42,973 bases of DNA from a virus: positions 1 to 42,973 of IMG/VR virus record IMGVR_UViG_3300021093_002296. One strand, 5' to 3'. The notes below the pieces were generated by a model. It had not been told where the DNA came from. It saw only the letters and a program-made list of their open reading frames with translations, and made no database searches. A program made the position numbers and the translations under genes. The number at the start of each line of letters is the position of its first letter. Position 1 is the stretch's first letter. Below are positions 10,836 through 42,973 of this stretch, one piece after another.

Positions 10836-10836
10836 C

Positions 10837-11478: not shown

Positions 11479-11484
11479 CTTATT

Positions 11485-12105: not shown

Positions 12106-12107
12106 TT

Positions 12108-13282: not shown

Positions 13283-13283
13283 T

Positions 13284-14063: not shown

Positions 14064-14073
14064 ATAAAATGTA

Positions 14074-14760
14074 ATGGAAAAAAATGAAGTATATATTTTT
14101 CATCATTTAGGGATGGGTGATCACATTATTTGTAATGGTTTAGTTAGGTGCATTAAAGAAAAATACGATATTTTAAATGTATTTTGTCACCCATATCATT
14201 ATGGTAGTGTTGAATTTATGTATAGGGATGATGTTAATATTAACGTTATTCCTGTTGGTGTCGTGTCTGAAATAGAAAATTACATAATAAAAAATAATTT
14301 AAATGAAAAAACTATAAGGGTAACGGCATCCCCGACAAGTCCACATAGTAAGTTTAGCTGGGACGAATTGTTTTATACCCAACACGGGATTGATCCTAAT
14401 GAAAGGTGGAAAAAATTTAAAGTTCTTCGTGATTATGAAAGAGAAAAAAAATTATATAATCAACTTAACCCTAATAATGAAAAGTTTGTATTAATACATT
14501 CTGCAGGTAGTGATAATGTAGATAGGATTGATTATTCAAAAATTAACGATGAGTATAAAAAAATATTTGTTAAAAAATACAGTGAAAATATTTTTGATTT
14601 TCTTTATTTAATTGAAAAAGCAGAAGAAGTTCATTGTGTTGAGTCGTCATTTCATTTATTAGTTGACTTAGTAGATTTAAATGATAATATATTTTTTCAT
14701 ACACTACAAAAAAGTCGCGGTTATTCACATAAATTAAGAAATAAATGGAAAATAGTATGA
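14074..14760 (+). CDS. GT-B-like glycosyltransferase (heptosyltransferase-like)
   Basis: 228 residues. The N-terminal IFHHLGMGDHIICNGLVR (8-25) resembles the GxGDxI loop that opens family 9 (ADP-heptose type) transferases, and VHCVESSFHLLVDLV (about 189-203) resembles the C-terminal site that follows the donor pocket in that group. The protein is shorter than bacterial family 9 enzymes (usually 320 or more residues), so it may be a compact relative or use a different donor. Preceded by a 10-bp gap after the fucosyltransferase gene. Confidence 0.6.
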   Translation: MEKNEVYIFHHLGMGDHIICNGLVRCIKEKYDILNVFCHPYHYGSVEFMYRDDVNINVIPVGVVSEIENYIIKNNLNEKTIRVTASPTSPHSKFSWDELFYTQHGIDPNERWKKFKVLRDYEREKKLYNQLNPNNEKFVLIHSAGSDNVDRIDYSKINDEYKKIFVKKYSENIFDFLYLIEKAEEVHCVESSFHLLVDLVDLNDNIFFHTLQKSRGYSHKLRNKWKIV

Positions 14761-15386
14761 TTGAAAATTATGAAATATTACCTAATGGTTTAATAAAACA
14801 GATTAGTATAAAAAACAAGTTACAGACATATGATAAAAAGTATATTGATGAAAGATATAATCAATACGGAATAAAAGGATTTCAAATGTCAGGATTAAGA
14901 TTAGGGTATTTAATATCATCAATTAATAAAATTCCAGAATCTATTTTAGATGTTGGTTACGGTAATGGTGATTTTTTAAAATTATGTTCAGAAACAAAAA
15001 TTAAGTGTTACGGAAACGATGTTTCAGGATATCCAGTCCCATCAAATGTTGAATTTGTTAATAGTATTTTTGATGATTACTATGAGGTTATTTCTTTTTT
15101 TGATGTTTTAGAACATTTTGAGGATATTACTTTTATAAAAAATTTAAATTGTAAGTATGTCTTTATAAGTGTTCCTTGGTGTCATAATTTTAATGATGAT
15201 TGGTTTGAAAAATGGAAACATAGACGTGAAGACGAGCATTTATGGCATTTTAACGATGTTTCTATTGTTAACTTTTTTAACGAAATGGGTTACAAACTAG
15301 TATCAAAATCTAATGTGGAAGATACTATTAGAACACCTATAGATAATGATGAAAATATTTTAACTTGTATATTTAAAAAATTATGA
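14757..15386 (+). CDS. SAM-dependent methyltransferase (Methyltransf_23-like)
   Basis: 209 residues from the ATG at 14757, which overlaps the previous stop as ATGA; an in-frame ATG at 14745 would add four residues. SAM loop ILDVGYGNGDFLKL (about 63-76), FFDVLEHFED (114-123) as motif IV, and a C-terminal HLWHFNDVSIVNFFNEMGY typical of type 11/23 methyltransferases. Likely methylates a sugar or lipid-linked intermediate. Overlaps gmd by ATGA. Confidence 0.82.
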   Translation: MIENYEILPNGLIKQISIKNKLQTYDKKYIDERYNQYGIKGFQMSGLRLGYLISSINKIPESILDVGYGNGDFLKLCSETKIKCYGNDVSGYPVPSNVEFVNSIFDDYYEVISFFDVLEHFEDITFIKNLNCKYVFISVPWCHNFNDDWFEKWKHRREDEHLWHFNDVSIVNFFNEMGYKLVSKSNVEDTIRTPIDNDENILTCIFKKL

Positions 15387-16360
15387 TTAGAGCATTAATA
15401 ACAGGCATAAACGGACAAGATGGTTCATATTTAGCCGAACTTTTGGTTGATAAAGGTTACGAAGTGTGGGGTACCGTAAAAAGAAATTCAGTATCTGAAA
15501 CACAATCATCAAGAATTAATAATTTAAGAGATGAAAATAAAATAAATTTAGAATACGCAGATTTAACGGATATGGCATCTTTAGTAAGAGTATTACAAAA
15601 AGTCCAACCAGATGAGGTATATAATTTAGCCGCACAATCTCACGTAAGAATTAGTTTTGATCAACCATTGTATACAGCAAACGCAACAGGTTTAGGGACT
15701 CTAAATTTATTAGAGGCGGTAAGAATGGTATCACCACACTCTAAAATCTATCAAGCGTCGTCTTCAGAAATGTTTGGTAATAACATAGATAATGACGGGT
15801 ACCAAAGAGAAACTACCCCCATGGATCCGGTTTCTCCTTATGGGTGTGCAAAAGTATTTTCATACAATATTTGTAGAAATTATAGAAACTCTTATGGTAT
15901 GAAAATATGGAACGGCATTTTGTTTAATCACGAATCACCAAGACGAGGAACTAACTTTGTTACAAATAAAGTTGTAAAGGCGGCTGTTAGAATTAGTTTA
16001 GGTTTACAAGATAAATTACATATTGGTAATTTATCGGCAACTAGAGATTGGGGTCACGCAAAAGATTATGTTTACGCTATGTGGTTAATGTTACAAACAG
16101 AAAAACCGGATGATTATGTTTGTTCAACCGGAGTATCACATTCAGTAAAAGATTTGTGTGAATACGTATTCAAATCGTTAGGTTTAAATTATTTAGATTA
16201 TATTGTTGTTGATGAAAAACACTTTAGACCTGAAGAATTGGAAAACTTAAAAGGGGATTCAACAAAACTAAGAAAAGAATTATTATGGCAACCAGAGTAT
16301 ACATTTGAATCAATGTTAGATGAAATGATTAAATATTGGTTAGAGTATTATGGAAAGTAA
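15383..16360 (+). CDS. gmd: GDP-mannose 4,6-dehydratase
   Basis: 325 residues, close to the usual ~320-370. NAD(P)-binding loop GINGQDG (8-14), NLAAQSHVRISFDQP (81-95), active-site YQASSSEMFG (123-132) and SPYGCAKVF (151-159) with catalytic Y153 and K157. LFNHESPRRGTNFVTNKV is a near-diagnostic Gmd segment. It converts GDP-D-mannose to GDP-4-keto-6-deoxy-mannose, the first step to GDP-L-fucose. Overlaps fcl by 11 bp, so the two enzymes are co-translated. Confidence 0.96.
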   Translation: MIRALITGINGQDGSYLAELLVDKGYEVWGTVKRNSVSETQSSRINNLRDENKINLEYADLTDMASLVRVLQKVQPDEVYNLAAQSHVRISFDQPLYTANATGLGTLNLLEAVRMVSPHSKIYQASSSEMFGNNIDNDGYQRETTPMDPVSPYGCAKVFSYNICRNYRNSYGMKIWNGILFNHESPRRGTNFVTNKVVKAAVRISLGLQDKLHIGNLSATRDWGHAKDYVYAMWLMLQTEKPDDYVCSTGVSHSVKDLCEYVFKSLGLNYLDYIVVDEKHFRPEELENLKGDSTKLRKELLWQPEYTFESMLDEMIKYWLEYYGK

Positions 16361-17264
16361 AATATTAGTTACAGGTGGGTATGGTTTAGTAGGGACAGAA
16401 TTCTCACAAAAAAAATACGTTAAACCAACGTCCATTGATGTCGATCTTAAAGACACAAATAAAGTTGATGAATTTTTTAATCAAAATCATTTTGATGGTG
16501 TTATTCATTGTGCAGCAAAAGTTGGGGGTGTTGGTGGTAATATGAAGTATAAGGGTGAATTTTTTTATGATAACATTATGATGAATACAAATGTTATTGA
16601 AACTGCAAGAAAATATAATATAAAAAAATTAGTATGCTTTTTATCAACTTGTGTTTTTCCAAATAATGTTGAATATCCATTAACAGAATCTAAAATACAT
16701 TTAGGCCCACCACACTTTTCAAATGACGCATACGCATATGCTAAAAGAATGGGTGACATTCAAATAAGGGCATATAAAGAACAATATGGATTAAATTATA
16801 AATCAGTTATACCAACGAACATTTATGGACCAAACGACAATTATGATATTGTAAATGGGCACGTAATCCCTTCATTAATTCATAAATGTTACTTAGCAAG
16901 AGAAAATAAAACAGATTTTACAATATGGGGTTCAGGAAAACCTTTAAGAGAATTTATATTTAGCCGTGATGTTGCAAAACTAACAGAATGGGTTTTGGAA
17001 AATTATGAGGAAAATGAACCAATAATATTTTCAACATCAGATGAAATATCAATAAAAGATGTTGTTGACGTAATTGTAGAATTAATGAATTATAAAGGTA
17101 ATGTTGTCTGGGATAAAGAAAAACCTGAAGGGCAATACAGAAAACCAAGTGATAATAGTAAAATAAAAAAATATTTACCTGATTTTAAATTTACACCATT
17201 TTACGATGGACTAAAAGAAACTATTGAATATTTTGAAAACAACTATAATATTATAAGAAAATAA
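16350..17264 (+). CDS. fcl: GDP-L-fucose synthase (epimerase/reductase)
   Basis: 304 residues, normal length. NADP-binding GGYGLVG (9-15), HCAAKVGGVGGN (53-64), STCVFP (99-104) and YAYAKR (128-133) with catalytic Y128 and K132. The VGGVGGN segment distinguishes Fcl from other short-chain epimerases. It epimerises C3 and C5 and reduces C4 of the Gmd product to give GDP-L-fucose, the donor for the GT11 enzyme at 13284. Also known as WcaG. Confidence 0.95.
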   Translation: MESKILVTGGYGLVGTEFSQKKYVKPTSIDVDLKDTNKVDEFFNQNHFDGVIHCAAKVGGVGGNMKYKGEFFYDNIMMNTNVIETARKYNIKKLVCFLSTCVFPNNVEYPLTESKIHLGPPHFSNDAYAYAKRMGDIQIRAYKEQYGLNYKSVIPTNIYGPNDNYDIVNGHVIPSLIHKCYLARENKTDFTIWGSGKPLREFIFSRDVAKLTEWVLENYEENEPIIFSTSDEISIKDVVDVIVELMNYKGNVVWDKEKPEGQYRKPSDNSKIKKYLPDFKFTPFYDGLKETIEYFENNYNIIRK

Positions 17265-29024: not shown

Positions 29025-31052
29025 CTACCTAATCTTTTTTTTCATAGTCCCATCATCATAGATTTCAATTATAACGCCTGTTGTATTATCAGGGTTTACT
29101 TCTTGACCCATTAAATTTATGTACTTGACAATTTTTTTATCAGTTATTGTTTTTGTTACTGATATCGGTCCATAAGTTTTAAATTGTCCGTCAATATCAA
29201 ATTGTTTTAATCTATAATATGTTACAGGATTTAAGTTATAATCAATATAAGAATATTTTATTTCTTGTGTAGAATTACCTGCGGCAAATTTAGTTGTAAT
29301 CTTTCTCCAATTTTCACCGTCAGTACTTGATTCTAAATCAAAATGACTTGAGTTATTTTCACTTGCGGTTACCCATTTAACAACGTTAAATTGTGGATAA
29401 GGTATCGCCTCAAATTGTGTTAATTCCACTGGCAGTGCGATAGGATCAGATAATCTCACCGTATATTCCTCTATTTCACCCCATCTATATGCTACTGCTG
29501 AGTAAGCATCAGTTGATGGTGTTGTATTCCAAACTGATAGAACTCTCATTATAACATCTCCTGTAAATGCATCTAATGGTACTGTAAATAATTGTGAAGT
29601 ACTATTAGCAGGTGCTTTTTGCATTATGTTTTCTGAGGTTTGAAAAACCCCATCTCCATTCCAATCAATCCACGCAGCGTATCCCTGACCGGGATCGAAA
29701 GTGTTTGTTGCGGTAACTGATAAACCATATGGTTCTCCTTTCGTTAATTCAATAACTTGGGATTTAAAATTTTGATAAGAATCACCATCATTTGTTGAGG
29801 TGTTGTTTATGTTTGCTAAAGTTACGTTAGAGATATAATCACCATCTTGTATTCCATAAGATCCGCTAGCGGTAGTATATGGTGTTGCATTACTTAAATT
29901 AACTGTTACAATATTTGAATTGCCCGAAGGACAAGTACCATCTTTTGATGTTGTTCTAAAATAAATCTGTGATTGTTGAACATTCATTATAATAGTATAT
30001 GGATTGGAGGGGCTCGATACAGATCCCGCAACACTCGTAAAATTATTAAATGACCATTCTAATTTAGTTATAGTTCCACCATTTCCGGAAGTTGTAAGTG
30101 TTGTTGCATCATTAACTACTGTATTAGTTTTTGTTGATGATAATGTTCCCCCATTTGTTGGTGTTGTACATATGGTTACTGATGTGATGCTTGCCAAAAA
30201 TCCGCCCCAAGTACCAACATTTGAAATATCTGTAGTCCATCTTATTGTTAATTGTCCTGCTGCATTCTCTGCGGTTATCGCACTTGGTATTGTTGTACCA
30301 TTCAAGGTTGCAAGCAACGGAGCTGATGTGTTTGCACCATCATAAATGTATAAATAATCGTAACTCGTTTCCAAATCCAATTGACTAAAATTTAATTGTA
30401 ATTTCTTTGTATTATCAGATGGCGTTAAGGTAATTGTTCTATTTACACTATTACCATATCCTGTCGAAGTAGGACCTGCAGGTCCACCATCATCAGAGAG
30501 GGAATACGTTAAAGATGAATTTAATGTTTGGGTACAAGCACCTAAAATAGGTATCAATGTATTAGTAGATGATGAGGTTGAAGTAACTCCAAAATCATCT
30601 AAATACCATAAATTTGTTCCAGATACTCTAGTATCTCTTACCCGAATAAACACATTAGTTAAACTTAAACTAGTTAAATCAACTACTCGTTGTACGTATG
30701 TAGTTGACATTGTGCCTGAATATGTGTTCCTAGATGTCCAGGTTGTACCATCTGGGGATGTTTCTACAACGAATCCGTGAGTTGCACTAGTGTTGCTTCG
30801 TCTAAACCAAAACGAAACCACTCCAGGATTTGCTATTTGAGGTGTTCGAATAATATCACCAGCACCATTGAAGGATAGATTGTGTGTACCAGTTCTTAAA
30901 GATGCAGTGCTGTATGTAATTGAAGTCTGAGCCCATGTACCTCCTTGGGTTGGTAATGTACTTGTAAAACTTTCGTAAATTCGATAATTGTTGCATTGTG
31001 TTCTAACGACTAAAGTTATTAGAAGCGATAAAAATAAAAATAGTTTTTTCAT
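29025..31052 (-). CDS. Secreted multidomain protein with T9SS-like C-terminal tail
   Basis: 675 residues. Residues 1-18 (MKKLFLFLSLLITLVVRT) form a signal peptide. Residues about 22-158 form a Bacteroidota-type jelly-roll ending LWYLDDFGV. A CUB-like domain follows at about 170-295 (DYLYIYDGA). About 395-535 is a GEVED-type domain (YAAWIDWNGDGVFQ and RWGEIEEYTV). From 543, LPVELTQFEA and WVTASENNSSHFDLESS are typical of Bacteroidota secreted proteins. The last ~35 residues (VKYINLMGQEV, then IIEIYDDGTMKKKI) resemble a type A T9SS sorting tail. It would be exported by Sec and perhaps displayed on the host surface by T9SS. Adhesion, superinfection exclusion or receptor masking are possible roles. 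Flanked by phage head genes. Confidence 0.82.
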   Translation of the reverse strand: MKKLFLFLSLLITLVVRTQCNNYRIYESFTSTLPTQGGTWAQTSITYSTASLRTGTHNLSFNGAGDIIRTPQIANPGVVSFWFRRSNTSATHGFVVETSPDGTTWTSRNTYSGTMSTTYVQRVVDLTSLSLTNVFIRVRDTRVSGTNLWYLDDFGVTSTSSSTNTLIPILGACTQTLNSSLTYSLSDDGGPAGPTSTGYGNSVNRTITLTPSDNTKKLQLNFSQLDLETSYDYLYIYDGANTSAPLLATLNGTTIPSAITAENAAGQLTIRWTTDISNVGTWGGFLASITSVTICTTPTNGGTLSSTKTNTVVNDATTLTTSGNGGTITKLEWSFNNFTSVAGSVSSPSNPYTIIMNVQQSQIYFRTTSKDGTCPSGNSNIVTVNLSNATPYTTASGSYGIQDGDYISNVTLANINNTSTNDGDSYQNFKSQVIELTKGEPYGLSVTATNTFDPGQGYAAWIDWNGDGVFQTSENIMQKAPANSTSQLFTVPLDAFTGDVIMRVLSVWNTTPSTDAYSAVAYRWGEIEEYTVRLSDPIALPVELTQFEAIPYPQFNVVKWVTASENNSSHFDLESSTDGENWRKITTKFAAGNSTQEIKYSYIDYNLNPVTYYRLKQFDIDGQFKTYGPISVTKTITDKKIVKYINLMGQEVNPDNTTGVIIEIYDDGTMKKKIR

Positions 31053-31148: not shown

Positions 31149-31182
31149 ATAACAAAAAAGGAGACAATTTCTTGTCTCCTTT
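31149..31182 (-). terminator. Strong intrinsic terminator after major capsid gene
   Basis: An 11-bp perfect stem AAAGGAGACAA / TTGTCTCCTTT (31157-31167 with 31172-31182) has a 4-nt loop and, on the minus strand, is followed by TTTTTTGTT. It sits 22 bp after the capsid stop. Confidence 0.92.
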
Positions 31183-31204
31183 CCGTAGATATTTAAGATA
31201 TTGA

Positions 31205-33070
31205 TTATCTCAATTCTCGTAAGTCGAATGTTCTAACTCCATCAACTGTGATACGTCCGTAGAAACGGTTGTTAACCATTTTCTTAGCGTATCTTGTCAT
31301 AATACCTTTGATAGGTGTGAAGTTGAATGGGTTATACATTGTAGGTGTTAATTGTAGAGGTACGTACGGTGCGTAAACATAACCTGTGTCTAACAATGAA
31401 GAACCTTTGTGTCCAATCAAAATTTGATTTGATGGGAAGTAAGGGTCTCTATACACTTGGTATCTTCCTGCTAATGTACCAACTCTTTCAATACCCATGT
31501 TGTATTGATCTTGCTCAGGTGAAGCGTTAGATACGTGGAAGTATTCTAAGTCATCAAAGATTGCAGAAACCTCAGAAGATACAACGATCCAGTTAGCACC
31601 ACCTCTCAAAGTAGATTTGTGGATTTGTGCTGACAATTGGTTGATTGCTGTAATCAACGTTTGGTTCCAATCTTTTTGAGTGTAAGAATTAACTCCTTGT
31701 ACTCTTCTCCATCCGTTGTAATCCCAACGTAAGTTCCAAGCCGCTCCTTTTCTAAGGTCTCTCAAGATTTCTCTATCGATTTCAGCCGCCACTTGCTCAG
31801 ACAATAAAGCTGTTAATTCAGCTTCAGCGTCGATGTTATGGAATGCTGAAACGTCTTGTGCCAATTCAGGTGACCATTGTGCTCTTAGTTTTCTTTCAGT
31901 TACAGAAACAGTTACTGATTCTAAATCGAAAGAAACCTCACCAATTTGATCTTCGAATTCTAAGTTAGCGTATCTTCTCCAAACTACAGTAAATGCATCA
32001 CCATTTAAAGTATCGTTTAAAGTAGAACCTGTATAACCATCTAAAGATGTTGAACCACAATTAGCACATGCTGGACATGATAAATCAACTTCTAAATAGA
32101 TACATCCGTCTTGAGAACAAATGTTGTAGTATGAACCACCATTACCTTCACCTGGGTAAGGAACAGGAGTTAATGTTGATGTAGGTGAAACAATTCCTTG
32201 TCCGTATTGTTGAGTAACAACTCTAAACAATAATGAGTTAGGATCACCAGCTGCATTAAATACTGTATCACATGGAGTAGTGTCAAACACGTTACCGTTA
32301 GAATTAGCGAAAACTCTTAAGTCAGAAAGGAAAGTTTCAGAATCAACTTCAGAACCATCAGGACCGATTAATTTACCGTTGCCAGCAATTGGAGTCCATC
32401 CGCAAAGTTTAACAATAACTTTTCTTACGTTATCACCACTTGCAAATTCATTAGTGGCTCCTGTTAATGATGAACCGTTCCATACTTGTACAGTAGCGTC
32501 TTGAGTTACTGCAGTCCATTTACCTTTAGAGTAGTCAAATACTCCTGGAGGATCTAATTGTCCTTCAGCACCTTCGTAGAATAAATCATAAAGATTTTTC
32601 TTGAATGAAGTTCCTGAACCACCTGGATATCCTGCACCAATACCTGTAGTGTTATTAGGTGCACCAACAGGTGAGTAGTGAGTTCCATAACCATCATATT
32701 CGTTAGCTGCGGTTTGTTCTTGACCTGTCTCATAACCTTGGATTCTTGGTACAAAGTAGAACAATTTACCGATAGGTAAGTTCATTGCTTGTACAGAAAC
32801 TAAGTCATTAGCCAACAATTTAGAGAATACTCTTCTTACGATAGGAAATACTACAGTTTCGAAAGAACCTGAACTATCAGTAGATGCTGCTTCATTGATT
32901 AAGTGAGATGCTTGGTTTTCATATAATTGTGCCATGTTCTCTTTAACGTGTCCTCTTAGACCGTCTAGGAATCCTAATCTATCCCATTTGTTAATTGTAT
33001 CTTCTTTGATAACTTTAAGGTGTTTCAACCCAATGTTACCTACAAGACCTGATTCTAATAATGCTCCCAT
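31205..33070 (-). CDS. gp23: Major capsid protein, T4 gp23-like
   Basis: 621 residues (T4 gp23 has 521). The strongest match is PELAQDVSAFHNIDAEAEL (401-419), equivalent to the T4 segment around SIELAQDLRAVHGMDADAEL, then EIDREILRDLR. RYQVYRDPYFPSNQILIGHKG and VYAPYVPLQLTP correspond to late gp23 strands. H56-L-I-N-E60 before A61 is a prohead protease site, close to the T4 cleavage position (E65). A Cys-rich insertion (C318, C323, C332, C335, C338) is unusual. It assembles into the capsid lattice and is matured by the gp21-like protease. It ends at a strong terminator and shares a unit with the scaffold gene. Confidence 0.93.
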   Translation of the reverse strand: MGALLESGLVGNIGLKHLKVIKEDTINKWDRLGFLDGLRGHVKENMAQLYENQASHLINEAASTDSSGSFETVVFPIVRRVFSKLLANDLVSVQAMNLPIGKLFYFVPRIQGYETGQEQTAANEYDGYGTHYSPVGAPNNTTGIGAGYPGGSGTSFKKNLYDLFYEGAEGQLDPPGVFDYSKGKWTAVTQDATVQVWNGSSLTGATNEFASGDNVRKVIVKLCGWTPIAGNGKLIGPDGSEVDSETFLSDLRVFANSNGNVFDTTPCDTVFNAAGDPNSLLFRVVTQQYGQGIVSPTSTLTPVPYPGEGNGGSYYNICSQDGCIYLEVDLSCPACANCGSTSLDGYTGSTLNDTLNGDAFTVVWRRYANLEFEDQIGEVSFDLESVTVSVTERKLRAQWSPELAQDVSAFHNIDAEAELTALLSEQVAAEIDREILRDLRKGAAWNLRWDYNGWRRVQGVNSYTQKDWNQTLITAINQLSAQIHKSTLRGGANWIVVSSEVSAIFDDLEYFHVSNASPEQDQYNMGIERVGTLAGRYQVYRDPYFPSNQILIGHKGSSLLDTGYVYAPYVPLQLTPTMYNPFNFTPIKGIMTRYAKKMVNNRFYGRITVDGVRTFDLRELR

Positions 33071-33105: not shown

Positions 33106-34563
33106 TTATTTTATTTTTGCCATCAAATCCTTCATTCTTAAAAACTGAGGATTCTCATAAGTTTTAGTTTCAATCAAATTACTTGCTGAACCACTTTGTG
33201 GAGTTTTAATTACTTTTCTTTCAATAGATTCAGTAAATACTCCAGTATTTGTTGATTCAGATCCTAATTCCGATTTAATTGTTTGATAAAGATTTTTTGA
33301 TTCTTTGATTGAATTAACGTTATCAAATCTTCTTAAAATGTTTATCTTTTCTTGTTTAGTTGTTGTGTGCTCTGTGAACAATCTTGTTGAGTAAGCCAAG
33401 TTAGAATTGAAAACAGCAACTTCGTTTAATTTATTTCTGAAGAAATCAAGTGCTTTTCTGTACTCTTCATTTTTCTCTCTTAATAAATTAACTTCTCTGT
33501 TAACTGATTCTACCTCTAAATGTCTTGGTGCGGTTCTTGGTTTTGGTAAACCTTTTCTACCCCATTTTCTTCCATTTCCAAGTGTTCTTGCCGCTTCTAC
33601 AGTTTCACCATCTTTTGTATAATCAATTTTAATCATTCCGTCTTTATCAGACATAATACCTTCTTCTTTTTCAACAAATGGATCATATGATGATTCGTTC
33701 CACTCCTTTTCCTTTTCCATGTCACCCATTTCGGTAACACCTTTTTTAAGTTTCGAAGGGTATTTAAATTTCATTTTACCGATTCTACCTTTTGGTTTAA
33801 AGTTTTCGCCGATTTCAAGCTCATAAACAACTTCGTCACGTTTTCCTTCTGCAGTAAATGCTGCTCCAGTTTCCTGTGAAGTATCTGTAGGATCGACAGC
33901 TTCATCAAATTCATAAGATAATTCTTCAAAATCATTATCATCATCATCATCATCATCTTCATATGATCTCATTTCAAAACTATCTCCCATAGGATTTTTA
34001 CTATCGTCAAAACGTAACTCATATAAAACACTTTCGTTTGTTTGTGCTCTCATTGGTGTAACGTTATTTTCCATTTCGTCCATTTGAATATAATATTCAG
34101 AATCTTTGTTAGTATCACTTAAGTGAATATTTCCACCTTCATCTTTTTTAACAATTATTCCGTCCTCATCTCCCATTGCCTTAAATACTTTAATTACATC
34201 AGACATTGGTGATTGAGTCATGTCCAAAGGAGCCATGGCGTCTTGATTATCATTCGGTACGTCTGTAGGCATTACCCCTACTTCGGCATCGAACTCAGTA
34301 TCATCAAAGTCTTCTACGTCGTCGTCGTCATCTTCTGTTGTGTCGTCGTCATATTCTGTTGTGTCGTCGTCATCTTCTTCTTGTTCAAACAAAGACTTTT
34401 TTGATTTTTTTGAACCCCCTAAAGATTCCCTTACTAATTCACTGATTTCTTCCTTCATTGTAGAAGCAAGTATTCCTTTTGCATTCTCATTAATAGCGTC
34501 CTCAACCGCCTTCATTTGTAGAAGGGCTTCCTCCACTATTGAATTATTTTTTTCCATACTCAT
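33106..34563 (-). CDS. gp22: Prohead scaffold protein, T4 gp22-like
   Basis: 485 residues from the ATG at 34563; a TTG-initiated version from 34575 is less likely, and a second ATG at 34557 is possible. The N-terminal ~60 residues are helical. Then comes a long acidic tract (EDDDDTTEYDDDTTEDDDDD) and a Glu/Asp-rich flexible middle. The C-terminal ~130 residues (about 355-485) are helical, with FNSNLAYSTRLFTEHTTT and EKINILRRFDNVNSIKESK, typical of scaffold C-termini that bind the shell. Many (I/L)-x-E sites suit degradation by the adjacent protease. Immediately upstream of gp23 as in T4. Confidence 0.78.
   Translation of the reverse strand: MSMEKNNSIVEEALLQMKAVEDAINENAKGILASTMKEEISELVRESLGGSKKSKKSLFEQEEDDDDTTEYDDDTTEDDDDDVEDFDDTEFDAEVGVMPTDVPNDNQDAMAPLDMTQSPMSDVIKVFKAMGDEDGIIVKKDEGGNIHLSDTNKDSEYYIQMDEMENNVTPMRAQTNESVLYELRFDDSKNPMGDSFEMRSYEDDDDDDDNDFEELSYEFDEAVDPTDTSQETGAAFTAEGKRDEVVYELEIGENFKPKGRIGKMKFKYPSKLKKGVTEMGDMEKEKEWNESSYDPFVEKEEGIMSDKDGMIKIDYTKDGETVEAARTLGNGRKWGRKGLPKPRTAPRHLEVESVNREVNLLREKNEEYRKALDFFRNKLNEVAVFNSNLAYSTRLFTEHTTTKQEKINILRRFDNVNSIKESKNLYQTIKSELGSESTNTGVFTESIERKVIKTPQSGSASNLIETKTYENPQFLRMKDLMAKIK
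34321..34380 (-). repeat. 21-bp tandem repeat encoding acidic tract of scaffold
   Basis: Copies at 34321-34341, 34342-34362 (one mismatch) and 34363-34380 (partial) encode the heptad TTEDDDD/TTEYDDD. In-frame and within the scaffold gene. Confidence 0.8.
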
Positions 34564-34598
34564 AGTATTATGCAATTCGCTGTGCGTTTATTTATTCA

Positions 34599-34605
34599 AT
34601 AAATA
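34599..34605 (-). promoter_or_regulatory. TATTTAT element upstream of scaffold/capsid unit
   Basis: On the minus strand the core reads ATATATTTATTGAATAA and ends 35 nt before the ATG at 34563, the longest spacing of the set. It would drive scaffold and capsid together, ending at the terminator at 31182. Confidence 0.45.
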
Positions 34606-34658: not shown

Positions 34659-34698
34659 ATAAAAAAAAGGGATAGTAAAAATATCATCCCTTTTTTAA
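34659..34698 (-). terminator. Intrinsic terminator after the protease unit
   Basis: AAAAAAGGGAT (34663-34673) pairs with ATCCCTTTTTT (34686-34696) around a 12-nt loop. Both strands have a U-tract, so it can act in either direction; on the minus strand it follows the 34720 stop. Confidence 0.8.
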
Positions 34699-34941: not shown

Positions 34942-35649
34942 TTATTTATCCAAATAATCGGATAATCTTCTCATTAAGTCAATAGATTTATCTATTCCTG
35001 TGTTTGAATTTTCTACTTTATGTTCCTCAAGTTTTTCTTCATATTTCGATTTATCATCTTGATTTAAATAAAGGTATGCACCTGGAGTTGATGGTGATGA
35101 AACTAAATCAAAACAAATTAATTCAAAGTCATCTTGTACTTCATTTTGTTCACCCTTTTTAACAAGGGAACCAACACCTCTTGAAGATACTCCCATAGTA
35201 ACCCCTTGTCTCATCATGTTAGCAGCAACATCCCCCTTAGATGATACAATACCTCTTTCATGAAATCCTGGTGTGGTTAGTAATTTTATTTTACCCATGA
35301 GAACGTTATCTTCCCACCAAATATCTGTAATAATATGTGCGACTCTATCTAAATCAATTAATGAGGACTCAGGGTGATTCAATTCTGAAATTGACATACC
35401 CCTATTAATCATATCTTTATATTTTTCAGCTTCTCTTTTTAAGATTTTTTCAGGGTATACTCTACCATTTCTATTTGGTACACCATGCTTTTGTAATGTT
35501 GCATAAAATACAAATGGTTTAGAATGATCTAATTGTCCGTAGGATTCTTTAATAACCTGACTATTTCTAAAGTCATTAGGGTTAATAACCCCAGCATCCC
35601 ACTCAACTAATATACCCTTTCCTGTATCTTTAGGTCCTAATATTTTCAT
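34942..35649 (-). CDS. gp21: Prohead core protease, T4 gp21-like
   Basis: 235 residues (T4 gp21 has 212). GVPNRNGRVYP (56-66), ELNHPE (89-94) with the putative catalytic H92, GVSSRGVG (153-160) with the serine (S155 or S156), and FDLVSSPSTPGAYL (180-193) are the S77-family landmarks. It should cleave scaffold, capsid and internal proteins after (I/L)-x-E during head maturation. The C-terminal ~45 residues are charged and may be autoprocessed. Sites obeying this rule occur in gp23 at E60 and in three small proteins at E13. Confidence 0.9.
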   Translation of the reverse strand: MKILGPKDTGKGILVEWDAGVINPNDFRNSQVIKESYGQLDHSKPFVFYATLQKHGVPNRNGRVYPEKILKREAEKYKDMINRGMSISELNHPESSLIDLDRVAHIITDIWWEDNVLMGKIKLLTTPGFHERGIVSSKGDVAANMMRQGVTMGVSSRGVGSLVKKGEQNEVQDDFELICFDLVSSPSTPGAYLYLNQDDKSKYEEKLEEHKVENSNTGIDKSIDLMRRLSDYLDK

Positions 35650-35663
35650 AATCGTTTTTAATG

Positions 35664-35670
35664 ATAAATA
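35664..35670 (-). promoter_or_regulatory. TATTTAT element upstream of protease gene
   Basis: On the minus strand the core reads AATATTTATCATTAAAAA and ends 14 nt before the ATG at 35649. It is almost identical to the copy at 37398, including the following C-A-x-T-A5 stretch. Confidence 0.55.
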
Positions 35671-36120
35671 TTATATACTTACAGTTTCTTTCAATTTCGT
35701 TATACTTAATATGAAATACTTTGAGTTTTTTAAATCGTCAACATAAATCGATTCTAAAATTCTTTTTATTTTTACCCTCAAAATTAATGATTTAAAATTA
35801 ATATTTTGATTACTCATAAATAACGTTATTTCAAGATTTAGAAAACTTTTTTTATTTTTTTGTATCCCACTTGTTCTTAAATCCAAATCTACTATATATT
35901 TTTTTTCAAATGTGGTAGGGTCAGCAACTTCTAATAAAGTGTGTAATATTTGACGTTTTAGTTCCCCTATTATTTTATTCCAATTACTGTGTTCTACTAT
36001 CGGTTCAATCCATGTTTGTAATACAATATAAATTGATTTAAAATTTTTGGAATCAACTGTTCCATAGTGACACTTTGCTTCATCAAAAAGATTTAATTTT
36101 GATGTTTTTCCTTTTTTCAT
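35671..36120 (-). CDS. Hypothetical protein in head cluster
   Basis: 149 residues, mixed alpha/beta. It contains IYIVLQTWIEPIVEHSNWNK and KIIGELKRQILHTLLEV (helical), then paired strands (KKYIVDLDLRTSGIQ, SFLNLEITLFMSNQ, LILRVKIKRIL). No known motif. It sits between the portal-side genes and the protease, where T4 has prohead core genes 67 and 68; sequence does not let me claim homology. Function unknown. Confidence 0.6.
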   Translation of the reverse strand: MKKGKTSKLNLFDEAKCHYGTVDSKNFKSIYIVLQTWIEPIVEHSNWNKIIGELKRQILHTLLEVADPTTFEKKYIVDLDLRTSGIQKNKKSFLNLEITLFMSNQNINFKSLILRVKIKRILESIYVDDLKNSKYFILSITKLKETVSI

Positions 36121-36200
36121 TCTTCATACGTTATACGTTTATTGTTTAAAAAAATATAATAAAACTTTTTTGTGTTGTCAAAATTTGAAAAAATTACTTA

Positions 36201-36207
36201 TATTTAT
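36201..36207 (+). promoter_or_regulatory. TATTTAT element upstream of the bS21 gene
   Basis: The plus-strand core reads TTATATTTATAACAT and ends 19 nt before the ATG at 36227, leaving room for the SD-like sequence between them. Confidence 0.5.
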
Positions 36208-36226: not shown

Positions 36227-36415
36227 ATGATTATAGTGCAAGTTAAAAATGAAAAGTCTATAGAGCAGGCTTTGAAAAATTATAAATTTAAAGTTTATAA
36301 AACAAAACAAATTCAAAAATTACAAGAAAGACAGGAATATAAAAAACCCTCCGTGAAACGAAGGGCTGAGATTAAAAAAGCACAATACAAACAAAAAAAT
36401 CAACTCTCTTCTTGA
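36227..36415 (+). CDS. rpsU: Ribosomal protein bS21, phage-encoded
   Basis: 62 residues (Bacteroidota bS21 is about 64-66). MIIVQVKNEKSIEQALKNYK at the start, then KLQERQEYKKPSVKRR and a Lys-rich end. It matches bS21 throughout: I-x-V-x-(3)-E-S-I-(2)-A-L-(2)-Y-(2)-K, KPSV(K/V)(K/R)R, and the K-A-Q-Y turn with Y54. bS21 binds the 30S platform next to the 16S rRNA 3' end. In Flavobacterium johnsoniae its Tyr54 helps sequester the anti-SD (from memory of published work). It is the only plus-strand gene in a minus-strand head cluster, with its own candidate promoter and SD-like site. Its 3' end overlaps the 36400 gene by 16 bp on the opposite strand. Confidence 0.93.
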   Translation: MIIVQVKNEKSIEQALKNYKFKVYKTKQIQKLQERQEYKKPSVKRRAEIKKAQYKQKNQLSS

Positions 36416-36660
36416 GTTTCTTCTTTTTTAGGTTCATTTTTTTTACCAAATATAGCTTCTGTTGATGTCAAACCTAAAGAACCAAAAGATAATAATGCAA
36501 TAACATCTATTAACGATTCATTTGGTGTTAATTTCCCTCCTGAAAATAAGGATACGAATAAACAGATAACTAATGAAACCACACAAATGATACCTGTGAA
36601 TCTTTTTGATGATAGTGTTGTCGGACCAGAACCCATCAACGATTTAAAAAATTTTGTCAT
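36400..36660 (-). CDS. Two-helix membrane protein, possible holin
   Basis: 86 residues. A short charged start and SSKRFTGI are followed by two hydrophobic segments: about 23-40 (GIICVVSLVICLFVSLF) and 51-68 (LIDVIALLSFGSLGLTS), then a highly charged tail KKNEPKKEETQEES. Two helices with charged ends fit a holin-like or other small membrane protein. Its start overlaps the end of the 36657 gene by 4 bp (ATGA). No endolysin is visible nearby, so the holin reading is weak. Confidence 0.6.
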   Translation of the reverse strand: MTKFFKSLMGSGPTTLSSKRFTGIICVVSLVICLFVSLFSGGKLTPNESLIDVIALLSFGSLGLTSTEAIFGKKNEPKKEETQEES

Positions 36661-37385
36661 AACCCCAAACTTAATTTTTTAAGTTTATAATAATCATAAT
36701 GGTTACATTTTGTTTCCATTATTTTATTTATTGTTTGATTAATTTTATTTTGTAATTCAGAATCACTACTTTCGTTCAAAGTATTTTTTAATTTTAATTT
36801 AACATCTTCTTTTAATTTACTCATCTCTTTCTTCAACTCGACTTTATCTAAAGACATTATTTCTTTCAATTCTTTTCTATCTCCTTCTGATAAATTTGAA
36901 AATTGTTTTGATAATGTTTTATTTGCTATAGTCACCATAGAACTTATTGGTAAATTAATACTTTCTTTAATATTTGTTTTCTCCTCGCTTATTAAAGTTT
37001 TTTTAATATTTTTTTTAGACTCTAAAACTGATTCTAAATTTTTTATACCAGTTTTGTATATTGCAGTATCAATGTCGAAATAATTATTTGATGTGGTTTT
37101 ATTCCAAGAATTAATCCATGTATTTACATCATTCAACTTTTTAGTTTGACTTTCTAATAGAATTTGTGAATATTCAATAGATTCGTTAATGTAATCATTC
37201 GCAATATCAATAGGTAATCTTTTGTTTGAAGATAAATCGTCATAGATATAATAAAGTTCTGATAAGTCTTTATCTTCTAAAACAATGTGTTTGAACTCAA
37301 ACATAAACCTTTTGAACTCAGGTTTTTTAGCTAATTCAATAGCGGTATTTTCTATTTTTGTTTTTATAGTTCCAAATGTACTCAT
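36657..37385 (-). CDS. Helical head-region protein, possible prohead core component
   Basis: 242 residues, almost wholly helical and Lys/Glu/Asn/Ser-rich, with MFEFKHIVLEDKDLSELYYIYDD (about 28-50) as its most distinctive stretch. SSMVTIANKTLSKQFSNLSE and KVELKKEMSKLKEDVKLKLK make long amphipathic helices. Directly after the portal gene, the position of T4 genes 67/68, suggesting a core or scaffold-like role; homology is not demonstrable by eye. Its own TATTTAT element is 12 nt before the start. Confidence 0.6.
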   Translation of the reverse strand: MSTFGTIKTKIENTAIELAKKPEFKRFMFEFKHIVLEDKDLSELYYIYDDLSSNKRLPIDIANDYINESIEYSQILLESQTKKLNDVNTWINSWNKTTSNNYFDIDTAIYKTGIKNLESVLESKKNIKKTLISEEKTNIKESINLPISSMVTIANKTLSKQFSNLSEGDRKELKEIMSLDKVELKKEMSKLKEDVKLKLKNTLNESSDSELQNKINQTINKIMETKCNHYDYYKLKKLSLGL

Positions 37386-37397: not shown

Positions 37398-37404
37398 ATA
37401 AATA
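37398..37404 (-). promoter_or_regulatory. TATTTAT element upstream of 37385 gene
   Basis: On the minus strand the core reads AATATTTATCAATAAAAAG and ends 12 nt before the ATG at 37385. It fills the gap directly after the portal stop at 37405. Confidence 0.55.
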
Positions 37405-39204
37405 TTACTTATCTATTAAATTTTTCAATCTGTCGTCTATTTCAATTAAAGAATTTCTTCCTTTTGATAAATCCATGTAATTTTTACCACTAAATAAATT
37501 CTCTTCAATTAATAAATCTAAGTCACTTCTAACCAATCTTTCGGTTGTTGGTGGTTCGGGTCCTCCTGATGGTGGTTCTGATCCTCCTGATGGTGGTGGA
37601 GGTGTAGATCCTCCACTGTCTCCACTATCTCCACCAGCTTCTGCACCTTTTTCACCTTCTTTTTTACCGTATAGATTATCAATGTTATCGAATACCCCTG
37701 TTTTAGTAATAACTTCAGCAGTTTTCCCAAGTTCAGCAGAAACCGCTCGTTCTATTCTTTGTTGTTGTAAATCAAGTCTAATTTCTTCATCAGAGAATCC
37801 TAAAATGTGTTTTTTAGCCCAAGATGCTGAAACAGGAGCAACTGAATCTTGAATAGGTGATACGGCATCCTTAAACAACGTTATTTTTTCTTTCCATAAT
37901 TCTACAGATAATAAATCCGCTTGTTTTGATGGGTTATGTAAACCTAAAGTAAAATTAGTTAACTCATCTTCAAAACCTAATAAAAATAAATGTATGATTG
38001 CAATTTTATTTAATTCAGCAATCATAGATTTTTGAATTCTATTAATTGTTCTTGCAAATCTAATATCAAGTAAAGAAAGGTTTTTACCATCCCCAACCGC
38101 CTCTTCAAAACCTAAATATGCTTTTGGTATTCTAAGTGCTGTTACTAATTTCTTTTGGATGTACTCTATATCGGCAATTTCCGCTAAGTTAGTACCACCA
38201 GGTAGTGTCTCAATGGGGTTAGTTGCTCCCGCATCTCTTACAGGAATAAAGAAATCTTGATCAACCGCCAATTGATTATATCTCATATCTACGTTACCTG
38301 TTTTAGGATCCGCAATCTGATCTCTTTTAAATTTAGAAGCAACTCTTTGTACATAAGCATCAACATCTTTGTCGTCCATGTTACCAACAAAGACTTTAAA
38401 AACTCTTCGTTCAGGGGCTCTTGATACCCTATAAATTAACATGGCATCTTCAGAAAGTAATAATTGTTTCCAAATACGTCTAGCCTTTTCTAACATTGAT
38501 GTACCATAAGGTAGTTTTCTATCGTCACCAAGTATTCTAAAATGTCCAATCTCCCAAGTATTAAATTCCATATTTTTTTCTTTCCAAACAAACTTTAATG
38601 CATCGTTTTCCATTTCTTGGGAATACTTATCAGGTTGAAATCTCATACCTTTTTCTAACCTTTCTATTTGGATATTAGGTAATTGTTGACACCCGACAAT
38701 TCCTTTTTCTGGATCCAATTTTAGATATATAAAATTATCCCCAAATTTACATGTGTTTCTAGTCCACATAGGTAGGTTTGTATTAATATCTAATTTACTT
38801 ATAAATAAATCTGTTAATACCGATTTAATTCTTTTTGATTCTGAATAAATCTTTATAATGTGTCCGTCTTGATCGGGAGTTGTTGACTCTTCGGCATATA
38901 TATCTAACGCAGCAGATATTTCAGGAGTGTATTCCATAGATTCGTAATCATAATATGACGCCATCCTTGTTGGTTCATAATAAACCGCTTGTTGATATAA
39001 ATTACTTTCAACTTTTTGCCATTGTTTACCAATGTACATTGTTTGTTGCGCTTGTAATTTTTCTTTTTCGAATTCAGTTTTGTCTGTTGTTTTTAATAGT
39101 TCTTTTTTGTCAAACTTAAATACAGGTGATTGTTGATCCATAGTTGAGTTTGGACCGAACGCCTTACTCAATCTTTGCCAAACAGTATATTTTTCTTGTG
39201 CCAT
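37405..39204 (-). CDS. gp20: Portal protein, T4 gp20-like
   Basis: 599 residues (T4 gp20 has 524). ASYYDYESMEYTPEISAALDIYAEE (around 82-106), the long central LPYGTSMLEKARRIWKQLLLSEDAMLIYRVSRAPERRVF, and LPGGTNLAEIADIEYIQKKL follow the T4 portal family. A Gly/Pro/Ser-rich linker at about 529-555 (GGDSGDSGG, PPPPSGGSEPP) precedes a separate C-terminal segment. It forms the dodecameric head vertex channel through which the terminase packages DNA. Lies 39 bp downstream of the terminase gene, so likely co-transcribed. Confidence 0.92.
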   Translation of the reverse strand: MAQEKYTVWQRLSKAFGPNSTMDQQSPVFKFDKKELLKTTDKTEFEKEKLQAQQTMYIGKQWQKVESNLYQQAVYYEPTRMASYYDYESMEYTPEISAALDIYAEESTTPDQDGHIIKIYSESKRIKSVLTDLFISKLDINTNLPMWTRNTCKFGDNFIYLKLDPEKGIVGCQQLPNIQIERLEKGMRFQPDKYSQEMENDALKFVWKEKNMEFNTWEIGHFRILGDDRKLPYGTSMLEKARRIWKQLLLSEDAMLIYRVSRAPERRVFKVFVGNMDDKDVDAYVQRVASKFKRDQIADPKTGNVDMRYNQLAVDQDFFIPVRDAGATNPIETLPGGTNLAEIADIEYIQKKLVTALRIPKAYLGFEEAVGDGKNLSLLDIRFARTINRIQKSMIAELNKIAIIHLFLLGFEDELTNFTLGLHNPSKQADLLSVELWKEKITLFKDAVSPIQDSVAPVSASWAKKHILGFSDEEIRLDLQQQRIERAVSAELGKTAEVITKTGVFDNIDNLYGKKEGEKGAEAGGDSGDSGGSTPPPPSGGSEPPSGGPEPPTTERLVRSDLDLLIEENLFSGKNYMDLSKGRNSLIEIDDRLKNLIDK

Positions 39205-39243: not shown

Positions 39244-41022
39244 TTAAACCCTTTTACCACCGAATAACCATAAATAGTTTTCATAATCACTTTTAGTTGG
39301 TTGATTCCTACCATACCCGAAATTATTGTTTGGATCAACAGGTAATCCAGGGTTAAAATTCTGAGAAGATTCTTTAAATGTGTTAGTCTCCGTAGTCCAA
39401 GAATCTATCATTGCCTTTGCCTGTTGTGTGGATTTTTCTAATTCAGCAAAAGATGTCTCACCAACGTATATTGCCATAGCTAATGACATTATTAAATCAT
39501 CATGTTGTCCCTTTTGGTGGTCAGGTCTACCATTTACATACACAAAAGTGTTTAACTCATTAAACAATCTTTGTGATCTTAAAGCAAAATCAAACCTTAA
39601 TGCCTCTTCAAACGCCTGCACAATTAATACTCTTTTGGAATTAAAATTTATTCCTGGTATCTTATCTTGTGCTTTTGGATCCCATTTCCATTTATCGGCG
39701 GGATTTACACCATCAACATATAAATTTTTATAACCTAATTCTTGTAACTTTCTTGAGGTGGAAACTCCCATACCTCCAGTAATATCTATTACTATGAAAG
39801 AGTTATACATTGTACCCCATTTGTATGCAATTTCGGCTAATACGTCAGGCGGTACCTTACCAACATATTCTAATACTTGTTCTCGCTCATCAAAATCAAT
39901 AACTATTAAAGTACTAAAATCTTCACTATCGCCACGAGAAACGTCAACACCCATTATATATCTATGTCCCTCAATAGGTTCTTTCCATTGCCAAAGAGCA
40001 CCACCCATCATTTTATTTTCAGGTTCTCTTATATATTTTTCTTTTATTTTTTTCATAGTCTCTGTAGGGATAACATTATCTCCCGAGCCTAAAAAGTTAC
40101 ATTCTAATTCTTGTGAAATTTTTCTTTTATCAAATTTTAATTTTTTTGCCATGTTTTCAAACCACGAACTATAAGCCTTGTATCCTTCATTTTCGACTTT
40201 TTTCTTTATTTCTTCAAAATCCCTGTCACTTACTTTTATGTCGGAGTAGTCAACAGTAATTTCACTATCTTTATAGTCAGTCCGATTAAGCATATAATGA
40301 ACTATATCATCACATTTGATAAGTTTTAAATCTTTAGAATATCTTGGATCCCTAAACCAATACATTTCTGTTATTTTAAAGTCATTCATACCTTTAACTG
40401 CCTGACTATAAATTGAGTAGTATATCGGATCGAATCCGTTTGGTGTTGAAATAACAATTACTTTACCTCCTGTTGAAAGGGACGCCATACAAGCCGACCA
40501 AAAGTCTTCATCGGCATTTATATATGCCGCCTCATCAAAAATTAATATTGTTGGTGTATACCCTCTTAAGGCATCTTTTGATGTTGCAACCGCTTTAACT
40601 TCACATCCATTTGTTAGTTTAAAATGTCTTTGTGAGTTTTTTTCTGCTGAAAAAGTCACTCCTAACCATTTAGGCCATTGTTCGACAAACGAACGAACTT
40701 TATTAGCCATCTCAACAGCGGTATCCATCTTATTTGCAATAATTAGAATTTTTTCAGGTTTTTCTTTACGGGCGAATACTAATCTTTTAGAAGCCCATGC
40801 TGATGTTACTGTTGATACTCCCGCTTGTCGGTACTTTAGTGCTATATTTTCTTCAGAAGTGTCGTAATCGTTAACCAACGTAACCTGATCATTAAATAAT
40901 TCTAATGGTACATATTTAGATTGTGTATTATCGTATGTTTGAAGATAAGTTTTTAATGCGTATGGTGTGTCTTTTACGCATTTAGCATATTCTAATAATA
41001 TTTGTTCTTTTGATAAAGACAT
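39244..41022 (-). CDS. gp17: Large terminase subunit, T4 gp17-like
   Basis: 592 residues (T4 gp17 has 610). ATPase: Walker A-like RQAGVST (65-71), Walker B ILIFDEA (159-165), coupling motif VISTPNG (190-196). Nuclease: MGVDVSRGD (357-365, first Asp D360), FIVIDITGG (409-417) and HDDLIMS (507-513) with the metal-binding acids. It cuts concatemeric DNA and pumps it into the head through the portal. No obvious small terminase (gp16) is recognised upstream; the two small ORFs at 41026-42007 are candidates only by position. Confidence 0.95.
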   Translation of the reverse strand: MSLSKEQILLEYAKCVKDTPYALKTYLQTYDNTQSKYVPLELFNDQVTLVNDYDTSEENIALKYRQAGVSTVTSAWASKRLVFARKEKPEKILIIANKMDTAVEMANKVRSFVEQWPKWLGVTFSAEKNSQRHFKLTNGCEVKAVATSKDALRGYTPTILIFDEAAYINADEDFWSACMASLSTGGKVIVISTPNGFDPIYYSIYSQAVKGMNDFKITEMYWFRDPRYSKDLKLIKCDDIVHYMLNRTDYKDSEITVDYSDIKVSDRDFEEIKKKVENEGYKAYSSWFENMAKKLKFDKRKISQELECNFLGSGDNVIPTETMKKIKEKYIREPENKMMGGALWQWKEPIEGHRYIMGVDVSRGDSEDFSTLIVIDFDEREQVLEYVGKVPPDVLAEIAYKWGTMYNSFIVIDITGGMGVSTSRKLQELGYKNLYVDGVNPADKWKWDPKAQDKIPGINFNSKRVLIVQAFEEALRFDFALRSQRLFNELNTFVYVNGRPDHQKGQHDDLIMSLAMAIYVGETSFAELEKSTQQAKAMIDSWTTETNTFKESSQNFNPGLPVDPNNNFGYGRNQPTKSDYENYLWLFGGKRV

Positions 41023-41607: not shown

Positions 41608-42007
41608 CGCTCACTAAATTTTTTTCCCATTTTAATACGATATCTCTTTCGTATAATTTATTCTCAACACTTTCGATAGATTCCCCATATTGGAAAACTA
41701 ATCTTTTTCTTTTATTAATTAAAATTTCATCACTATCGGACTTTTCCCAAGCCAATGATATAACACCATCGATAGCATCATACACACCAAAAAAATCTGA
41801 GTCTTGTATTAATGTTAAACTAATTTCTGAATTTTTAAGTACCCCAACAGTTTTTATATAATTAACATCAGGAGGTAATGGTTTACCTGCCGCTGGTTCA
41901 GCATCCCAATCTTCCCCCCAAACATCATCAACATCCGAAAAAATAAATTCATATAAATTATCACCTTTATAATTTGGACCTAATTCGTTAACGTAAACTA
42001 AATTCAT
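41588..42007 (-). CDS. Hypothetical protein in terminase operon
   Basis: 139 residues, mixed alpha/beta and acidic. LVYVNELGPNYKGDNLYEFIFSD and DDVWGEDWDAEP are rich in acidic and aromatic residues. GVISLAWEKSDSDEILINKR and FQYGESIESVENKLYERDIV follow. No catalytic motif. Start overlaps the end of the upstream gene by ATGA; its 3' end overlaps the next gene by 20 bp. Function unknown. Confidence 0.55.
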   Translation of the reverse strand: MNLVYVNELGPNYKGDNLYEFIFSDVDDVWGEDWDAEPAAGKPLPPDVNYIKTVGVLKNSEISLTLIQDSDFFGVYDAIDGVISLAWEKSDSDEILINKRKRLVFQYGESIESVENKLYERDIVLKWEKNLVSDETYES

Positions 42008-42973
42008 ATAACTCTACCGTTTGGTGTAACTTTTATTTGTTTACCTTTTATTGTAAAAACTAAATTCTCTTTATTTGTTTTACCAACAAATTTTATATTT
42101 AAATTCTCAGAAAATAATTTTTTAGCAACTAATTCTTGTTTTCTTGTTTCAGAAAGATTAGTAATTTCATTATTAATTTTTACTCTTTTTAGTTTTTCAT
42201 TTATAAAATCTTTTTTTCTTTTTTCTTCTAAAATTGGTTTTTCGTTTTCATTAATTTTAAAATACTTAGATAATACTTTTTCGACTCTAGATTCTGCAAA
42301 TGTTTCTTCAGGTGCTGGTGGTGCAGGTAATTCCTCACTTCCCATACCTTCAGATTCACCTCCCATTGGTGGCATTCCCATACCAAACTCATCTTCGGCA
42401 CCCAAATCTAAATCTCCTTCTTCTCCCATTCCGTAATCTTCAAAAGAATCAAACTTATCCAAAATATCTTCTTTATCATCCTCATCTAATTTTGATAAGT
42501 CTATTGCAGATAATATAGAATTTACAACATATTTTATGTCTTGCGAATCCATTCCTTTATCTTTATCAAATGATCTTATTTTTTGACTTAGTCTCCCTGT
42601 TAATTTTTGTATAGTTTTTAACCCAACAGGACCTCCTTCTTCACCTTCTTCACCCCCCATTGGTGTCATTCCCATATCAGGTGCCGGTGCTCCTTCTTCA
42701 CCCCCCATTGGTGGCATTCCTAAATCGGGTGCCGGTGGCATTCCCATATCAGATGCCGGTGGCATTCCCATATCAGGTGCCGGTGGCATTCCCATATCAG
42801 GTGCCGGTGCTCCTTCTTCACCCCCCATTGGTGGCATTCCTAAATCGGGTGCCGGTGGGGCAGGTGTACCTAAATCTGCAGGAGGTGCCGGTGGGGCAGG
42901 TGTACCTAAATCTGCAGGAGGTGCCGGTGGGGCAGGTGTACCTAAATCTGCAGGAGGTGCCGGTAAGTCACCA
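42004..42973 (-). CDS. Proline-rich repeat protein, C-terminal part (runs off window)
   Basis: The frame stays open to the window edge (323 codons, no start identified). The first part is low-complexity: 12-residue units PADLGTPAPPAP, then 8-residue units PDMGMPPA and GGEEGAPA. Next comes a helical core (about IQKLTGRLSQKIRSFDKD onward, QDIKYVVNSILSAIDLSKLDEDD), another acidic/Gly-Met stretch, and a C-terminal Lys/Glu-rich helical region ending in a beta tail NLVFTIKGKQIKVTPNGRVI. The helical core suggests a conserved domain; the Pro-rich part is probably a flexible arm. Lies upstream of the terminase genes; virion role possible. Confidence 0.6.
   Translation of the reverse strand, partial: GDLPAPPADLGTPAPPAPPADLGTPAPPAPPADLGTPAPPAPDLGMPPMGGEEGAPAPDMGMPPAPDMGMPPASDMGMPPAPDLGMPPMGGEEGAPAPDMGMTPMGGEEGEEGGPVGLKTIQKLTGRLSQKIRSFDKDKGMDSQDIKYVVNSILSAIDLSKLDEDDKEDILDKFDSFEDYGMGEEGDLDLGAEDEFGMGMPPMGGESEGMGSEELPAPPAPEETFAESRVEKVLSKYFKINENEKPILEEKRKKDFINEKLKRVKINNEITNLSETRKQELVAKKLFSENLNIKFVGKTNKENLVFTIKGKQIKVTPNGRVI
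42668..42858 (-). repeat. 120-bp direct repeat in Pro-rich gene
   Basis: Sequence at about 42668-42738 recurs almost exactly at 42788-42858 (offset 120 bp, 40 codons), encoding GGEEGAPAPDMGMPPA-type units. Confidence 0.8.
42849..42965 (-). repeat. 36-bp tandem repeat in Pro-rich gene
   Basis: Three identical 36-bp copies at 42849-42884, 42885-42920 and 42921-42956, with a 9-bp start of a fourth, encode a 12-residue unit. There are no spacers between copies. Confidence 0.9.

Follow-up and report, generated by a model that had tools for sequence, protein, structure and literature searches.

Among ribosomal proteins, bS21 is the one most often found in phages, and a gene for it that lies among phage head genes raises the question of what the phage protein would do on the ribosomes of its host and how the gene itself is controlled. 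In many Bacteroidota the host gene, rpsU, is under a known ribosome-sensing feedback. We examined one such locus in a window that comprises the whole of a 42,973-base viral record, a 43-kb fragment.

The bS21 gene and its product

One open frame runs on the plus strand from an ATG at 36227 to a TGA at 36415 and encodes a 62-residue product, MIIVQVKNEKSIEQALKNYKFKVYKTKQIQKLQERQEYKKPSVKRRAEIKKAQYKQKNQLSS; the antisense frame of the same interval is interrupted by a stop.

36227-36415, plus strand: coding sequence of bS21, 62 residues
36386-36388, plus strand: TAC codon of Tyr54, which pairs with Tyr54 of Flavobacterium johnsoniae bS21

The Pfam profile Ribosomal_S21 (PF01165) matched residues 4-56 over profile positions 2-54 of 55 and scored 43.5 bits where the curated cutoff is 27 (E = 2.5e-11), and the top match in the PDB was chain z of 7jil (E = 8e-10), the F. 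johnsoniae ribosome (PMC9723584, PMC9976891). The first-pass annotation had called a 62-residue bS21 with a tyrosine at position 54, in the motif K-A-Q-Y, and had proposed an alignment as a check; the frame and the profile match bear out the call, and in the PDB alignment, which covers residues 1-57 without gaps, Tyr54 falls on the Tyr54 of F. johnsoniae. A predicted model of the protein had a mean pLDDT of 88 and two helices, and a Foldseek search of that model against the PDB returned no useful match.

We regard the frame as a real gene because 80 close loci in IMG/VR carry bS21 and because the median pairwise dN/dS among 40 distinct phage coding sequences is 0.13, a value that marks clear purifying selection. 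The 80 loci yielded 37 distinct protein strings, partial ones included, of which 35 are full-length, and since the loci are related to one another, their counts do not represent independent events. Residue 54 is Tyr or His in all 35 full-length relatives, with His in three close variants, and is Tyr in all 77 distinct bacterial bS21 proteins sampled. In a tree built on few columns, the 35 phage proteins fell to one side of a branch with a support of 100/99; the nearest bacterial proteins are those of Bacteroidota, with the closest matches in Saprospiraceae.

The differences between phage and bacterial proteins are unevenly distributed. As the bacterial comparison set consisted of the proteins nearest to the phage ones, the contrast is a conservative one. 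Residue overlap between the two groups was below 10% at 13 of 58 positions, twelve of them in residues 8-37 and one at residue 58. Identity between phage and bacteria was 0.37 over residues 8-38 and 0.62 over residues 39-57; the corresponding values among the bacterial proteins were 0.71 and 0.62. Residues 1-38 hold a mean of 5.6 arginines in bacteria and 0.9 in the phages, and the residues that took their place at key sites were Gln, Phe, or Thr and not Lys, a pattern that base composition cannot by itself explain. On this evidence the C-terminal helix that would contact the anti-Shine-Dalgarno (anti-SD) sequence is bacterial-like in its residues, and divergence is concentrated in residues 8-37; the helix was compared by conservation across its residue range, with Tyr54 as the single contact residue that was aligned.

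In F. johnsoniae, a Y54A substitution or a C-terminal truncation of bS21 raises SD-dependent translation (PMC9976891). The first-pass annotation had allowed that the phage protein either keeps the sequestration of the 16S rRNA 3' tail or alters it through a changed surface. Retention of Tyr54 and of the contact helix agrees with the former, and the N-terminal half is indeed changed; an alteration that would favor SD-bearing mRNAs is not supported, as SD-like pairing before the phage genes showed no enrichment over a mock window. A phage bS21 that loosens the sequestration, such that ribosomes prefer SD-bearing phage mRNAs over host mRNAs, would accord with an N-terminal half so unlike that of host bS21 and with the His54 of some relatives, but the retained residue and helix, together with the lack of SD enrichment, make it very unlikely.

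Head-gene setting and transcription signals

The bS21 gene lies within the head cluster yet on the opposite strand, as the genes for the terminase large subunit (TerL), the portal protein, the protease, and the major capsid protein (MCP) are all on the minus strand.

39244-41022, minus strand: TerL (PF03237, E = 4e-14; PHROG 2)
37405-39204, minus strand: T4-type portal protein (PF07230, E = 3e-77)
36657-37385, minus strand: 242-residue gene of the unit opposing bS21, with TATTTAT at 37398-37404
36400-36660, minus strand: 86-residue protein with two hydrophobic segments, convergent with bS21
36201-36207, plus strand: TATTTAT promoter-like element of bS21, beginning 26 nt before the ATG
36153-36181, minus strand: sigma-70-like site (TTGACA-17-TATATT, 11 of 12) upstream of the 149-residue gene, by consensus match only
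35671-36120, minus strand: conserved 149-residue protein, divergent from bS21 across a 106-nt gap
34942-35649, minus strand: prohead protease (PF03420, E = 2.5e-23), with TATTTAT at 35664-35670
33106-34575, minus strand: first gene of the MCP unit, with TATTTAT at 34599-34605
31205-33070, minus strand: MCP, Gp23 type (PF07068, E = 6e-75)

The order of the 149-residue gene (minus), bS21 (plus), and the 86-residue gene (minus) is conserved among relatives, the 3' ends of bS21 and the 86-residue gene overlapping by 16 nt in 77 of 79 of them and the gap to the 149-residue gene measuring 104-109 nt in most. Both neighbors are tightly linked to bS21, which was present in 152 of the 158 loci retrieved by way of the neighbor genes. 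The 149-residue protein had no confident family match and the 86-residue protein no clear one, and either of these flanking genes is a candidate for the 'bS21_CN' of Chen et al. The 86-residue protein has invariant SSKR and LTSTE motifs and a holin-like look.

Several other features of the window were recorded. No RNA element was found in it by Rfam, nor any tRNA. A plus-strand run of sugar genes (6157-17264) includes glycosyltransferases, a GDP-mannose 4,6-dehydratase (15383-16360), an epimerase (16350-17264), and a family 11 glycosyltransferase (13284-14063), which suggests a fucose-type modification of surface sugars. Directly after the capsid gene, a minus-strand gene (29025-31052) encodes a 675-residue protein with CUB and GEVED domains that is possibly a surface or adhesion protein. 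A proline-rich repeat (APPAPDLG-like, at about 42838-42900, minus strand) lies in frame upstream of the annotated start of the gene at 42004-42837, the true start of which may be further upstream, beyond the end of the window.

The location of bS21 inside the head cluster had been read as a sign of late expression. That argument does not hold, because the gene is antisense to the head genes, and being located there is not enough to imply late co-transcription. Late-phase expression is pointed to by other evidence, namely the TATTTAT element that bS21 has in common with head-gene units and the metatranscriptomes of related phages, in which bS21 is highly transcribed together with capsid genes in the late phase (Chen et al. 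2022, PMC9723584). An extraribosomal role, for instance as part of the virion or as a regulator that binds RNA, would also suit a gene located among head genes, and packaging in virions was raised as a possibility by Chen et al. (PMC9723584), but the part of the protein that stayed unchanged is its ribosome-contacting C-terminal half, and we hold such a role to be highly improbable.

A sense-strand TATTTAT stands 25-29 nt ahead of the bS21 ATG in all 79 testable phage loci and in none of 80 bacterial rpsU leaders. Sense VTATTTAT precedes 11 genes in the window and 46, 26, and 27 genes in three related contigs of greater length, compared with expected numbers of 0.5 to 2.9, and the class of element was found at 98 of 211 transcription-unit starts versus 12 of 205 internal genes. 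Its places in the window include those ahead of the protease unit, the MCP-containing unit, the 242-residue gene after the portal, and bS21. Loci without bS21 bear on which gene the element serves: three of them (L201, L193, and L215) keep the 149-residue neighbor and have neither bS21 nor the element; two others (L203 and L200) keep that neighbor and retain the element, here ahead of another small ORF, lipoprotein-like, that occupies the plus-strand slot of bS21. The conservation of the element suggests that bS21 is transcribed from a promoter-like site of its own. Few of the sampled element-bearing genes have a known function, so a strictly late class is at most a possibility, and a literature search found no paper on the TATTTAT motif as a late promoter.

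Another candidate reading took TATTTATA for a minus-strand late promoter of T4 type (TATAAATA) that serves the 149-residue gene; we rejected it because the site is gone in the three loci that keep this gene without bS21, and stands ahead of the different plus-strand ORF in the other two. The ORFs in the bS21 slot of the latter (L203:2674-2946, minus strand, and L200) have a lipoprotein-like start (MSTFIILIIVLLLSSCKNYS). In G001, G002, and G005 (L084-L099), as in the window, many genes have a VTATTTAT that begins just 13-15 nt upstream of the ATG; were it a -10 element, genes with this spacing would give leaderless or near-leaderless mRNAs, which is of interest in a phage that carries bS21.

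A second signal lies inside the bS21 gene, where AGCCCTTCGTTTCACGGAGGGTTTTTT occurs on the minus strand opposite codons 39-47.

36345-36367, minus strand: predicted intrinsic terminator inside bS21 (codons 40-47), with a T-run opposite Lys39-Lys40 at 36341-36346
34666-34693, fits both strands: predicted terminator after the protease unit
31156-31183, minus strand: predicted terminator after the MCP gene

The hairpin was present in 38 of 42 distinct bS21 coding sequences with folding energies from -9.5 to -14.6 kcal/mol, where synonymous recodings gave about -2.5 (sd 2); of the remaining four, one has a weaker hairpin (L059) and three practically none (L043, L075, L080). Its stem codons are mostly rare ones in this A+T-rich phage (CCC 5.5%, TCC 4.7%, CGA 3.1%, AGG 15%), with a joint usage, GCT included, of about 3e-6, and the codons that vary are those of the loop, 43 and 44. 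Bacterial rpsU folds weakly at the same codons (median -5.0). Since the T-run follows the stem on the minus strand only, the hairpin, which lies 33-55 nt past the stop of the 86-residue gene, would terminate that gene's transcript inside bS21. Codons 39-47 are thereby predicted to have a second role, as an intrinsic terminator antisense to bS21 that serves the opposing unit of head genes. The same hairpin forms in the sense RNA, where it might act on mRNA stability or translation, or it might be a by-product of codon choice. We judge both quite unlikely: synonymous recoding destroys the hairpin, the strand-specific T-run sits just beyond a minus-strand gene, L201, which has no bS21, carries a different G+C-rich hairpin, likewise with a T-run, directly downstream of the 86-residue gene, and intergenic hairpins occur in several deeper relatives. 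An antisense terminator is also consistent with two further unit ends predicted among the head genes, and the predicted units delimited by the elements and the three terminators match those mapped by RNA in Chen et al., namely the MCP with its upstream gene and the protease with its downstream gene (PMC9723584).

The bS21 leader and feedback on host rpsU

SD strength was scored as the energy of pairing between the 16S tail, which we took to be UCACCUCCUUUCU, and the 22 nt upstream of the start codon; pairing below -13 kcal/mol was counted as an extended SD. This tail agrees with the numbering in PMC9976891.

36205-36226, plus strand: translation start region of bS21, without the extended SD typical of host rpsU

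Bacterial rpsU leaders had a median pairing of -17.5 kcal/mol, with 60% below -13; in a clade made mostly of Flavobacteriales, 32 of 35 had an extended SD. The 39 distinct leaders of close phage bS21 genes had a median of +0.8 and a best value of -6.2 kcal/mol, none below -7 and thus 0/39 with an extended SD, and no leader fell below -13 among more distant phage bS21 genes in a related cassette (0/34) or in other contexts (0/20). The related-cassette set includes a few loci of the first, and the total is roughly 85 phage leaders. Two loci in bins labelled Pelagibacter and Limnohabitans (L108, L117) carry a Flavobacteriales-type rpsU with an extended SD and are probably mis-binned contigs.

In F. 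johnsoniae, rpsU has an extended SD and is preferentially translated by ribosomes that lack bS21 (McNutt et al. 2023, PMC9976891), and the same authors raise, as a speculation, that host bS21 is displaced by phages, a change that the feedback would work against. Given its leader, the phage gene should escape the feedback, on condition that the host has it: about 40% of the sampled bacterial rpsU genes, those of the nearest matches (Saprospiraceae) among them, also have no extended SD.

Replacement of host bS21 by the phage protein is plausible, and the reading that we consider probable, by a modest measure, is that it takes place during virion production with Tyr54 sequestration kept, from the gene's own promoter and an SD-less leader, and free of host feedback. 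The bS21 transcript would start at a sense promoter of the TATTTAT class common to several head-gene units and be translated from its SD-less leader, and transcription arriving from the opposing head genes would stop at the antisense terminator, short of the 5' part of bS21. The protein would then compete with host bS21 for Bacteroidota 30S subunits, its C-terminal helix and Tyr54 holding the 16S 3' tail sequestered so that ribosomes stay SD-independent, as phage mRNAs would need. Its gene, with no extended SD, would lie outside the loop in which bS21-less ribosomes translate rpsU, and ribosomes filled with the phage protein should also keep translation of host rpsU low. The rewritten N-terminal half, with about five conserved arginines lost, may be the seat of any altered mRNA preference or exchange behavior.

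A stronger version would have the phage take over the feedback loop itself: bS21-less ribosomes would fail to accumulate because phage bS21, made without an extended SD, fills them, host bS21 would fall, and the Tyr54-keeping phage protein, its N-terminal helix altered, would be locked in, with the internal terminator shielding its gene from transcription of the head genes opposite. We offer this tentatively, as possible and short of probable. Phage bS21 might otherwise mainly top up the supply at a time of high phage demand and leave ribosome behavior unchanged; a conserved contact helix and a leader that would permit feedback-free synthesis suit such a role, but it has no need of the 12 fixed differences in residues 8-37 that are conserved across the phage clade, and we find it fairly unlikely. 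Phage copies consistently lack the host-type control site and keep the sequestering residue, from which it is predicted that the phage protein should repress host rpsU while being itself resistant to the feedback. F. johnsoniae, for which strains and reporters have been published, is a system in which this prediction is testable.

Comparison with known systems

The closest known systems are the 47 Bacteroidetes phage genomes of Chen et al. 2022, in which bS21 lies opposite the TerL-portal-protease-MCP cluster and has an aromatic residue 54 and a divergent N-terminal helix, and for which replacement of host bS21 was proposed (PMC9723584). Like the jumbo phages of that study (TerL clades a-e, with genomes near 300 kb and Bacteroidota hosts), the present locus has bS21 opposite the genes for TerL, portal, prohead protease, and MCP with hypothetical genes on both sides, an aromatic residue 54, a divergent N-terminal region, and a phage clade of its own in the bS21 tree. 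Four divergent positions in the N-terminal region were named for those phages; the loss of arginines is a point added here.

The host rpsU/bS21 of Flavobacteriales (PMC9976891) belongs to the same family and has the same Tyr54 and conserved C-terminal helix, but the phage gene differs in having no extended SD, in having a phage promoter-like element, and in residues 8-37. The bS21 of Pelagibacter phage HTVC008M, which enters E. coli 70S ribosomes (Mizuno et al. 2019, as cited in PMC9723584), is by that description a further phage-encoded bS21, from another phage and another host phylum.

The core interpretation, a phage bS21 that retains residue 54 and replaces host bS21, is thus already published for the lake-phage group. 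That account (PMC9723584) makes no mention of a promoter or of autoregulation, and the promoter-like element, the comparison of leader SDs, and the embedded terminator are absent from it; the control elements described here, namely a promoter-like site of the gene's own, the lack of a host-type regulatory site, and an internal terminator, appear to be new details.
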